Positions 9,623 to 31,595 of a DNA stretch of 50,210 nucleotides are shown here, in pieces. Location of the stretch: contig JAGTQF010000008.1 of the NCBI GenBank assembly GCA_018396655.1, positions 1-50,210 on the forward strand. Direction: 5' to 3'. The stretch comes from Candidatus Bathyarchaeota archaeon. GTDB lineage: Archaea > Thermoproteota > Bathyarchaeia > Bathyarchaeales > DTEX01. The position numbers and the translations under genes are program-made. Each line of letters starts with the position of its first letter. Position 1 is the first letter of the stretch. The notes beneath the pieces are model-generated. The model was given only the letters and a program-made list of their open reading frames with translations, searched no databases and was not told the DNA's origin.

Positions 9623-10069
9623 CTGAGCATCGATGAAGTTGATAGAGAGATTTTAAGGATGCTGCAGGAGGATGCTCGGATATCATTTAGAAAGATAGCT
9701 GAGAGACTAAATATGAGTGAGGCAACAGTATTCGTTAGGGTTAAGAAGCTCCTTAAGAAGGGCATTATAAAAGGCTTTACAACAATAGTTTCGCCGGAGG
9801 CCTTAGGAAAAAGAATGACGGCATTTGTCTTGATAAGCGCCGACCCAAAAAAGCTTCAAAAGGTTCTTGAAACTCTAAGTAAAATGAAAGACGTATATGA
9901 GGTCTATGACGTAACAGGCACATACTACGCCATAGCAAAGGTTCGCGCCGAAGACCAAACCCAGCTGGCGAGAATAATTGATGAGATAGGTATGATTGAT
10001 GGTGTTACAAGCACTGAAACGGCGCTAGTCTTAAGGAGCATAAAAGAGGAAATGCGAATAAGCATCTAG
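9623..10069 (+). CDS. Lrp/AsnC family transcriptional regulator; apparent CTG start
   Basis: LSIDEVDREILRMLQEDARISFRKIAERLNMSEATVFVRVKKLLKKGIIKGF HTH plus RAM domain; called ATG(9659) truncates the conserved DxxDREIL helix; SD GGAGGG 8-9 nt before CTG. Confidence 0.88.
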   Translation: MSIDEVDREILRMLQEDARISFRKIAERLNMSEATVFVRVKKLLKKGIIKGFTTIVSPEALGKRMTAFVLISADPKKLQKVLETLSKMKDVYEVYDVTGTYYAIAKVRAEDQTQLARIIDEIGMIDGVTSTETALVLRSIKEEMRISI

Positions 10070-10155: not shown

Positions 10156-10740
10156 ATCAGACGTATAATAGTTATTACTGGGACTCCAGGCGTCGGTAAA
10201 TCCTCTGTTTCAAGGGTCCTTGCTTCTAAAATAAATGCGCACCTTATATCTATAGGTGAACTTGTTAAGAGGGAGAAGATTTATAGCGGCGTGAATAAGA
10301 ATCGTAATACCTTAATTGCGGATATAGATAAAGTCTCAAGGCGAATTAGAGAGATTATGGCTGAGGTCTCAGGCGACATCATAATTGAAGGGCACTTCGC
10401 TGTCGATGTTGTTCCACTCGAGGAGGTTACAGCGGTCTTCGTCTTAAGAAGAGACCCTGAAGAGCTTAAGGGGATTCTTGAAAGCCGCTCATACAGTGAG
10501 AGGAAGATTAGAGAGAATCTTGCAGCCGAGATTCTAGATGTCTGCCTTTATGATGCAATAAAGAGGTGTGGTGTTGAGAAAGTTTGTGAAGTAAATGTGA
10601 CATCAAGGGATGTTGAGGATGTTGTTCAAGAAATCATGGAGGTTCTTAATGGCACGAGGGAGCTCAGAGTTGGAATCGTGGATTGGCTTGGAAAACTTGA
10701 GTCTGAGGGAAAACTCGACGAATATTTAAAGGGATTCTAG
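10156..10740 (+). CDS. AK6/Fap7-like P-loop nucleotide kinase; apparent ATC start
   Basis: Upstream of the called GTG(10291) the frame encodes IRRIIVITGTPGVGKSSVSRVLASKINAHLISIGELVKREKIYSG; Walker A GTPGVGKS; SD GGGAGG 7 nt before ATC. Confidence 0.82.
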   Translation: MRRIIVITGTPGVGKSSVSRVLASKINAHLISIGELVKREKIYSGVNKNRNTLIADIDKVSRRIREIMAEVSGDIIIEGHFAVDVVPLEEVTAVFVLRRDPEELKGILESRSYSERKIRENLAAEILDVCLYDAIKRCGVEKVCEVNVTSRDVEDVVQEIMEVLNGTRELRVGIVDWLGKLESEGKLDEYLKGF

Positions 10741-29136: not shown

Positions 29137-30150
29137 TTGATTAGTATGCCATGCATAGTAGTTGTCTGCGGATTTTTCGGCGATACCGGGAAGGGGAAAA
29201 TAATATCTTATCTCGCGCTAAAAGACAAGATTAGCGTAGCTGCCAGGGCGGGTGTAGGTCCAAACGCCGGACACACTGTTGTCTATGGAGATAAAACCTA
29301 TAAGGTCCGCATGATACCAAGCGCCTTCGTCTATGAAAAGTGCCGCCTATTGATAGGGCCGGGGGTCTTAGTGGACCCAAAAATATTTCTGGATGAGGTT
29401 AGACTCGTTAATGCCGAAAATAGGGCTGGGCTTGACCCTCAATGTGCCATAATAGAGCCTAAGCATATTGAGGCTGATAGAGCTGGGCACTTAGCATCAG
29501 AGATTGGAACAACTGGAACTGGAACTGGACCATGTAATGCTGACCGGGTGCTTAGAAGGGCTAAGCTGGCGAGAAACATCCCTGAGCTCCAGCGTTTCCT
29601 CACTGATGTTCCCCTAGAAGTTAATAATGCAATTGATAGCGGAGAGAATGTTTTGATTGAGGGGACTCAGGGAACATACCTCTCCTTATGGCATGGAACA
29701 TATCCATACGTTACGTCTAAGGATGTGACTGCATCAGCGGCTTGCTCGGATGTTGGGGTTGGGCCAAAGAAGGTTGATGAGGTAATAATTGTTTTTAAGG
29801 CGTTTGTAACTAGGGTTGGAGCCGGACCACTTCCAGGCGAGATTCCATGGGAGGAAGCGGAGAAGAGGGGATGGGCTGAAGTAGCAACGGTTACTGGTAG
29901 AAGGAGAAGGGCTGCACCATTCAACTTTGATTTGGCTAAGAGGGCTGTCATGCTAAATAGCGCTACGCAAGCTGCCATAACTAAAATCGACGTGTTATTC
30001 CCGGAGTGTAAGGGCGCAAGAACATTTGGAGATTTATCGGATGAGGCCAGAAAGTTCATTAGAAGGGTTGAGGAGGAGATAAAGATTCCAGTAACATTAA
30101 TAGGAACCGGGCCGGAAGTCTGGGATATTGTGGATAGGAGATTTGAGTGA
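29137..30150 (+). CDS. purA: adenylosuccinate synthetase
   Basis: VVCGFFGDTGKGKIISYLAL, VGPNAGHTV, EGTQGTYLSLWHGTYPYVTSKDVTA. Confidence 0.93.
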   Translation: MISMPCIVVVCGFFGDTGKGKIISYLALKDKISVAARAGVGPNAGHTVVYGDKTYKVRMIPSAFVYEKCRLLIGPGVLVDPKIFLDEVRLVNAENRAGLDPQCAIIEPKHIEADRAGHLASEIGTTGTGTGPCNADRVLRRAKLARNIPELQRFLTDVPLEVNNAIDSGENVLIEGTQGTYLSLWHGTYPYVTSKDVTASAACSDVGVGPKKVDEVIIVFKAFVTRVGAGPLPGEIPWEEAEKRGWAEVATVTGRRRRAAPFNFDLAKRAVMLNSATQAAITKIDVLFPECKGARTFGDLSDEARKFIRRVEEEIKIPVTLIGTGPEVWDIVDRRFE

Positions 30151-30245: not shown

Positions 30246-30261
30246 CCAAGTCGTGATTTGG
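30246..30261 (+). promoter_or_regulatory. hairpin/near-palindrome immediately upstream of rpo7 ribosome binding site
   Basis: CCAAGT-CGTG-ATTTGG directly abutting AAGGAGTGA. Confidence 0.4.
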
Positions 30262-30276
30262 AAGGAGTGAGCGATT

Positions 30277-30864
30277 ACGTTCAATCTAGCAACTGTGGAG
30301 GATACGGTTCGCATACCGCCCGACAAATTTAATGAGCCACTTGAGAAGGTCGCATTAGAGCAGCTAAAGATGAAATATGTGGGCGTAATTGACGATGAGC
30401 TGGGCTATTTAATAGCGGTCACAAACGTTAGAGTCTCCCCCATTGGAAAGATAATTCCCGGGGATGCTGCAATCCATCATAAGGTAACCTTTATGCTCCT
30501 AACATTTCTGCCAAAGGTTCAGGAGATAGTTGAGGGTGAGGTTGTTGAGGTTGCAGACTTTGGGGCCTTTGTTCGTATAGGGCCCGTTGACGCTCTCCTC
30601 CATGTGTCACAGTTAATGGACGACTTCATAACGTATGATGAGAAGCAGGGTGTTTTAATGGGCAAGGAGACTAAGCGTAAGGTGACTGTTGGCGATAGGG
30701 TGCGCGTTAGGATAACAGCCGTGTCGATAGGTAGGGGTGCTGGCTTCGGGAAGATAGGCGTGACCGCACGCCAACCCTTCCTTGGAAAGATTGAGTGGAT
30801 TGAGGAGGATTTGAAGAAACTGAAGGCTGAGGCTCAGGCGGCTGAGGCTAAGGGAAAGGAGTAG
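30277..30864 (+). CDS. rpo7: DNA-directed RNA polymerase subunit Rpo7 (RpoE'); apparent ACG start
   Basis: (T/M)FNLATVEDTVRIPPDKFNEPLEKVALEQLKMKYVGVIDDELGYLIAVTNV...; aligns residue for residue with archaeal Rpo7 N-termini (MYKLxxxxxxVRIPP); called GTG(30295) truncates 6 aa. Confidence 0.92.
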   Translation, partial: TFNLATVEDTVRIPPDKFNEPLEKVALEQLKMKYVGVIDDELGYLIAVTNVRVSPIGKIIPGDAAIHHKVTFMLLTFLPKVQEIVEGEVVEVADFGAFVRIGPVDALLHVSQLMDDFITYDEKQGVLMGKETKRKVTVGDRVRVRITAVSIGRGAGFGKIGVTARQPFLGKIEWIEEDLKKLKAEAQAAEAKGKE

Positions 30865-30879
30865 TGTGGTGATATCGGA

Positions 30880-31065
30880 TTGGTTGAGAGGGCTTGTAGG
30901 AGATGCCATTATATAACTGAAGAGAATATTTGTCCAAACTGTAAGTCGACGGATTTAAGCGAGGACTTCAGTGGACTAGTAGTAATATTCGAGCCAAAAA
31001 GCTCCGCCATAGCTAAAACGATGAAGATTGAGAAGAAGGGGCGGTATGCCATAAAGGTGAGGTAG
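30880..31065 (+). CDS. spt4: transcription elongation factor Spt4 (RpoE'')
   Basis: ERACRRCHYITEENICPNCKSTDLSEDFSGLVVIFEPKSSAIAKTM. Confidence 0.92.
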   Translation: MVERACRRCHYITEENICPNCKSTDLSEDFSGLVVIFEPKSSAIAKTMKIEKKGRYAIKVR

Positions 31066-31073
31066 AAAGTGGC

Positions 31074-31595
31074 ATGTATATTCTCACGCCAGAACTTAGA
31101 GACGAGCTTAAAGCCCCATTAGGCCACCTCATCAGAGGTTCACTTGATGATGTTATTAGAGAGTTAAAGGAGCTGATGGAATCAGTTAGGCCTGTGAAAA
31201 TAATCTCCGTGGGCGATGTTATATCGAGAAGCATGCTTGAGAGGGGGCTTCCACTAAATGTTTTCATAGTTGATAACAAGTCTATGCGAAGGCCCACCGA
31301 GCCCATAAAATTTAGGGCGGATAGAATAATGGAGCTCACCAATCCGGCTGGCACAATTATGGATGATGCCTGGCGTGTTATAGGTGAAGCCACTAAATTG
31401 GATGGTTTAGTTGAAGTTCTAGTTGATGGCGAAGAGGATTTACTCACAATCGTTGCGGTCCTTGTGGCTCCTGAGAAATCCATGGTCGTCTATGGTCAGC
31501 CTAATGAGGGAGTTGTTGTGATTAATGTTGATGAAGAGACTAAAGCTAGGATGCGTAGGATTTTGGAGAGGATGGAGCATAAACCGGAAAGCTAA
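31074..31595 (+). CDS. GTP-dependent dephospho-CoA kinase (DUF359)
   Basis: IISVGDVISRSMLERGLPLNVFIVDNKSMRRP...NPAGTI, DGEEDLLTIVAVLVAPEKSMVVYGQPNEGVV. Confidence 0.9.
   Translation: MYILTPELRDELKAPLGHLIRGSLDDVIRELKELMESVRPVKIISVGDVISRSMLERGLPLNVFIVDNKSMRRPTEPIKFRADRIMELTNPAGTIMDDAWRVIGEATKLDGLVEVLVDGEEDLLTIVAVLVAPEKSMVVYGQPNEGVVVINVDEETKARMRRILERMEHKPES

Follow-up and report, generated by a model that had tools for sequence, protein, structure and literature searches.

Where does translation of rpo7, which encodes subunit Rpo7 (RpoE') of RNA polymerase, start in a 50,210-nucleotide stretch of Bathyarchaeota DNA, hereafter called the window? A mechanical list of open reading frames opens rpo7 at a GTG, while the preliminary description placed the start six codons upstream of it, at ACG, a codon outside the start set of NCBI table 11 (ATG, GTG, TTG, CTG, ATT, ATC, ATA). 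The window, contig C47, comes from a metagenome assembly (1.32 Mb, 48 contigs), and its genome belongs to family f1 (the labels f1, f3 and so on were assigned in this analysis). Direct reading of positions 30268-30297 gave TGA GCG ATT ACG TTC AAT CTA GCA ACT GTG, and GGAGTGA was found six bases 5' of ACG, both as had been described (Table 1).

The product of the gene matched the Pfam profiles SHS2_Rpb7-N (63.9 bits) and S1 (58 bits) and the Rpo7 equivalogs NF006333 of NCBIfam (238 bits, cut-off 143) and TIGR00448 (201 bits, cut-off 124), and the gene order, rpo7, spt4, dephospho-CoA kinase, rps24e and rps27ae, is typical of archaeal Rpo7. In pairwise alignments with the solved archaeal Rpo7 chains 4qiw, 8cro and 7ok0, query residue 4 (F) fell opposite chain residue 2, which puts the threonine encoded by ACG on Met1, in agreement with the original proposal; alignments with chains 1go3 and 2pmz agree with ACG at Met1 as well. 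The in-frame TGA leaves no space for an upstream ATG, GTG or TTG start in the window, and the distance from the end of purA indicates that translational coupling is absent here.

Table 1. Positions in the window of the features at the rpo7 locus and at other genes discussed in the text
Feature	Position	Strand	Basis or remark
purA (adenylosuccinate synthetase), upstream neighbour	29137..30150	+	ends 126 nt before ACG
GGAGTGA, Shine-Dalgarno (SD)	30264..30270	+	GGAG ends 9 nt, GGAGTGA 6 nt before ACG
In-frame TGA, three codons 5' of ACG	30268..30270	+	sequence reading
GCG codon between TGA and ATT	30271	+	sequence reading
ATT, alternative start named in the preliminary description	30274..30276	+	column -1; not conserved in family
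ACG start codon (supported), Met1 column of Rpo7	30277..30279	+	alignment to solved chains; family comparison
rpo7 (RNA polymerase subunit Rpo7/RpoE') CDS	30277..30864	+	ACG to stop, 195 codons + stop; profiles, alignments
GTG, codon 7, pick of gene callers	30295..30297	+	ORF list; within family, this genome only
spt4, downstream neighbour, TTG start	30880..31065	+	ORF list, profile matches
GTP-dependent dephospho-CoA kinase (DUF359), ATG in window	31074..31595	+	ACG at same column in G001, G007
YfcE-like phosphodiesterase	33145-32633	-	TTG in window
Aminotransferase, CTG start	6534-6532	-	after GGTGAT
Lrp/LysM-type regulator, apparent CTG start	9623-9625		after GGAGGG
Small P-loop kinase, apparent ATC start	10156-10158		after GGGAGGATATCAT

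The codon at the Met1 column was then compared across relatives. The family comprises 21 genomes. In two of their assemblies rpo7 was not matched, in a third the gene lacks its start, and the remaining 18 testable genomes, which represent four genera, all carry ACG at this column. ACG was also found in nine genomes of five further Bathyarchaeia families, namely, G022 (f3), G037 (f5), G186-188 (f11), G204-205 (f17) and G218-219 (f21), giving 27 genomes in total (named records include L034-L039, L042, L047 and L062). A base-call error at this site, with ATG in the relatives, had been put forward as what would overturn the proposal; for such an error, or one of assembly, nothing speaks except the metagenomic origin of the contig, and the occurrence of the identical codon in separate assemblies from several projects has already refuted it, leaving it a practically negligible probability. 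A codon that is fixed in the family and recurs in several separate lineages looks like a genuine, functional non-standard start signal, as opposed to a sequencing artefact.

To distinguish a start codon from an ordinary threonine codon, we examined the columns around ACG in the 18 rpo7 sequences of f1 plus f3. Residue identity in the eight codons before ACG was 0.05-0.33, and the two highest of these columns correspond to the SD, whereas it reached 1.00 at ACG (column 0) and at columns +1 and +2. Codons +1 and +2 differ synonymously (e.g., TTC/TTT), but ACG is constant in all 18 sequences. In contrast, each of the five other threonine columns in rpo7 uses three or four of the codons ACA, ACC, ACT and ACG, and ACG accounts for only about 20% of threonine codons in f1 genes (725/3598). 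In five of the 18 sequences, a TGA lies in frame three codons 5' of ACG, with no NTG between this stop and ACG. The possibility that Rpo7 of this clade lacks the first six residues failed too, as F-N-[LIV]-[VA] follows ACG in 18/18 sequences, a protein-level constraint. Together with its presence in 27 genomes, this sharp conservation boundary supports, at the level of comparative DNA, ACG 30277 as the start codon of rpo7 and not as an internal threonine codon.

If ACG were an internal threonine codon, the true start would have to lie nearby, either at column -1 (ATT, GTT or another codon) or at the GTG at codon 7. ATT and GTG do exist in the window genome, but column -1 is occupied by nine codons in the 18 sequences (ATT, GTT, ACT, AAT, AAA, AAG, GCA, ACA and GCC), which excludes ATT, named as the alternative in the preliminary description, as a clade-wide start. 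Moreover, within the family, GTG occurs at column +6 in the window genome only, with GTT, ATT, GCT, CTG, TTA and other codons in its place elsewhere. Additionally, the only constant codon is ACG, while an internal threonine codon would be expected to vary synonymously. Three genomes stand apart: in G003 (L033/L113), the sequence reads TGA ATG ATT ACG, that is, with ATG two codons 5' of ACG, and in G005 and G006, GTG lies three codons 5' of ACG, inside the SD, so that another start is possible in those three. Except for them, the N-terminal boundary is marked by a conserved non-AUG codon without an in-frame canonical start, and we consider a nearby start very unlikely. In G001 and G010, ACG occupies the position of the upstream ATG of G003, two codons 5' of the start ACG.

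Among 151 distinct Rpo7 sequences, the Met1 column contained ATG in 86, ACG in 26, TTG in 21, GTG in 14, CTG in two, and TTA and CCG in one each; thus, nearly all relatives that do not carry ACG have ATG, GTG or TTG there, and rarely CTG. The single CCG (G316) was dismissed as a non-NTG start, as GTG lies one codon upstream. The single TTA (L083, Thaumarchaeota SJ3.Bin56) follows TGATGA and a strong SD. We also scanned 260 genomes of the class with an N-terminal pattern that recovers 117 of the 151 known Rpo7 N-termini (~78%). With NVG at the Met1 column, every rpo7 match had ACG, the matches in G134, G034 and G246 being dismissed as other proteins or chance, and with NNH at this column, there was no rpo7 match in these 260 genomes. 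In about 325 genomes of other Thermoproteota classes, no rpo7 with ACG was found at this ~78% sensitivity, which is probably lower for distant classes.

The distribution of ACG was also traced on a quick tree of the 151 Rpo7 proteins, built with residue 1 omitted and with SH-aLRT support only. Five changes were required for the ACG label, and well-supported branches make four of them unavoidable; shuffled labels required 24 on average. The common ancestor of f1, f3 and f5 probably already carried ACG, genus g9 of f5 having ATG, and the occurrence of ACG in f11, f17 and f21 would represent either separate gains or else several losses.

How could such a codon be recognized? A purine-rich SD precedes every ACG start. 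The duplex energy calculated for the SD of the window rpo7 was -7.1 kcal/mol with the anti-SD AUCACCUCC, which was assumed and not read from the 16S gene. The SD before ACG was stronger than that before ATG (median -8.1 vs. -5.6 kcal/mol, P ~3e-7, with sequences taken as independent and the same assumed anti-SD), and similar in strength to the SD of GTG and TTG rpo7 orthologues. A stronger SD at non-AUG starts is a reported prokaryotic trend, and the SD before ACG fits the compensation described there (PMC5622118). No conserved RNA structure or leader structure was found around the rpo7 start. The TTG or GTG triplets that overlap the SD in some genomes might serve as an out-of-frame start just upstream, followed by a frameshift into rpo7. 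However, genus g5 has no overlapping GTG (GGAGGAGAGAATAGTTACG), and in G007 the frame opened by this GTG closes within a few codons, making such a route extremely unlikely.

The initiator tRNA is encoded by two separate, normal gene copies (L325 and L326, in G000:C33 and G000:C44), identical to each other but with different surroundings, which have the CAU anticodon, the A1-U72 pair and an anticodon stem with three G-C pairs. No dedicated ACG initiator, i.e., an initiator-like tRNA with CGU, was present among the 30 tRNA loci read. In bacteria, IF3 reportedly demands Watson-Crick pairs at codon bases one and two (PMC10158994), and in archaea, initiation at codons other than AUG is disfavoured by aIF1 (PMC6237735, PMC8211752); given this proofreading, ACG would be expected to be a poor start. 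Loss or divergence of aIF1 was dismissed as a cause: ordinary, conserved aIF1 sequences were found in 32 of 34 genomes, and the two genomes in which no match was seen have less complete assemblies.

These observations suggest, with a probability that we consider high, that ACG is a genuine start of rpo7, placed by the SD, read by the initiator Met-tRNA and recurrent in Bathyarchaeia, and that the output of Rpo7 is probably low or regulated. GGAGTGA would position the small ribosomal subunit on the start, and the ordinary initiator Met-tRNA (CAU) would pair with bases one and three of ACG, the mismatch in the middle being tolerated. We infer that decoding by this tRNA lets Rpo7 still begin with methionine. 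Fixation of ACG would date back to the family's ancestor, with several origins of the codon within Bathyarchaeia, and the weak start probably keeps Rpo7, a dissociable stalk subunit, low, or ties its output to the conditions of initiation.

The search for further odd starts covered about 820 kb of ten f1 genomes and one f4 genome, and only cases checked by hand are given here, as the first automatic ortholog scans were dominated by shadow ORFs, near-identical intergenic DNA and internal columns. The dephospho-CoA kinase gene, two genes after rpo7, has ACG, with an SD present, in two congeners, G001 (L263/L009) and G007 (L248/L002), where G000 has ATG; the respective N-termini read THILTPEL and TYILTPEL as compared with MYILTPEL. 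The NAD synthetase gene has ACG in G006 (L250, G006:C6), with no in-frame NTG near it, as opposed to ATG in G004 and TTG in G008. ACG is also the likely start of an aspartate-dehydrogenase-like gene in G006:C6 (L250-L255) and G005:C1 (L230-L239), the only two sequences, which begin with TKIGAGLIG and TPIGAGLIG; in G005, a TTG lies a few codons upstream. Other codons were seen as well. The gene for a YfcE-like phosphodiesterase apparently starts in G006:C6 (L250-L255) with ATT, right after a stop and GGAGGTG, and has CTG in G005. In the window itself, CTG begins an aminotransferase gene, as it does in G005, and apparently a regulator gene whose ortholog in G005 has TTG, while the ATC apparently starting a small kinase gene corresponds to GTG in G005. 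A small and partly manual comparison with about 390 kb of four f8 genomes served as a control; of the candidates flagged there, those inspected had ATG or TTG upstream. Besides rpo7, further genes of this clade seem to begin with ACG or with other unusual codons.

The gene for methionyl-tRNA synthetase (MetRS; L350-L368, outside the window) may be a further case, and it is the most striking one. In the order, this enzyme type occurs in 20 genomes, and 19 of them have CTC at its Met1 column; a single codon is kept at none of the 21 other conserved leucine columns. CTC is preceded by a conserved GGAGGTGC, and other orders have TTG or ATG at this column. In several genomes there is no upstream in-frame NTG, but the f8 genomes carry GTG two codons upstream, so CTC is only a possible start codon of MetRS. 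The G005 assembly contains two MetRS copies, 90% identical (G005:C1:191790-192569 and G005:C10:17662-18441), and may be a mixed bin.

These additional starts bear on two other ways in which ACG could be used. First, C-to-U editing of rpo7 mRNA would turn ACG into AUG, as with some plastid initiation codons. The only codon type found in the scans is one C-to-U step from AUG, and the literature discusses plastid ACG starts together with such editing. However, at 313 internal columns with a methionine majority, the f1 rows contained ACG four times and other threonine codons six times. Although these events are few, there is no clear excess of ACG and hence no sign of general ACG-to-AUG editing, which is still compatible with editing at a specific site. 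Moreover, the apparent ATT, ATC and CTC starts of the clade could not be converted to AUG by C-to-U changes, and the strong SD beside ACG is not needed under an editing model. We know of no mRNA editing of this kind in archaea, and we consider it quite improbable here. Second, the elongator tRNA-Thr(CGU) might initiate at ACG, in which case Rpo7 would begin with threonine. This cognate tRNA is present, and so is tRNA-Leu(GAG), cognate to the possible CTC start of MetRS. Nevertheless, tRNA-Thr(CGU) is an ordinary elongator, the same as tRNA-Thr(UGU) apart from the anticodon, and binding to aIF2 in the manner of an initiator would be unexpected for it; moreover, any threonine codon should then work, yet ACG alone is used. 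We regard threonine initiation as very improbable.

More broadly, Bathyarchaeia as a whole might follow a loosened start rule, under which core genes are permanently non-NTG (ACG in rpo7, CTC in MetRS, and ACG, ATT, ATC or CTG in others), some perhaps beginning with a residue other than methionine. We offer this as a tentative idea that may well not hold. If it were true, the output of genes for transcription and aminoacylation would follow initiation stringency or the supply of the initiator Met-tRNA.

As gene callers and table 11 bar ACG, at least six N-terminal residues of Rpo7 are missing from annotations of the clade. The loss reaches about 31 residues where an early NTG is absent, and other genes may suffer too. 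Given the proofreading by aIF1 and IF3, a start with a middle mismatch that is kept family-wide and was gained repeatedly in one gene is unexpected. The ACG of rpo7 offers a natural, testable substrate for studying how archaea select start codons and for the view that translation sets the levels of the Rpo7 stalk.

Known non-AUG starts of prokaryotes are GTG, TTG and, rarely, CTG or ATT, the AUU of infC being the textbook case. They resemble the rpo7 start in that a weak codon is offset by a stronger SD and is fixed in an essential housekeeping gene, but differ from it in that the mismatch of the rpo7 ACG is at the middle base. A reconstruction of 61,358 ancestral AUG starts, which relies on annotated starts, reported switches to GUG, UUG, CUG and AUU, and none to ACG (PMC5622118). 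In a literature search that was not exhaustive, we found no published example of an archaeal gene that starts with ACG. The edited ACG codons of plastids share with rpo7 a genomic ACG at Met1 of a conserved gene; unlike in plastids, there is no internal sign of editing here, and the clade has apparent non-NTG starts that editing could not make AUG. In eukaryotes, near-cognate initiation at ACG is known from yeast ALA1 and from viral ACG starts, and e/aIF1, aIF1A and aIF2 are common to archaea and eukaryotes. As proposed for rpo7, the initiator Met-tRNA reads ACG in these cases. However, eukaryotic ACG starts depend on scanning and mostly yield extra isoforms, whereas the ACG of rpo7 would be an SD-guided codon and the sole start of a core polymerase subunit.
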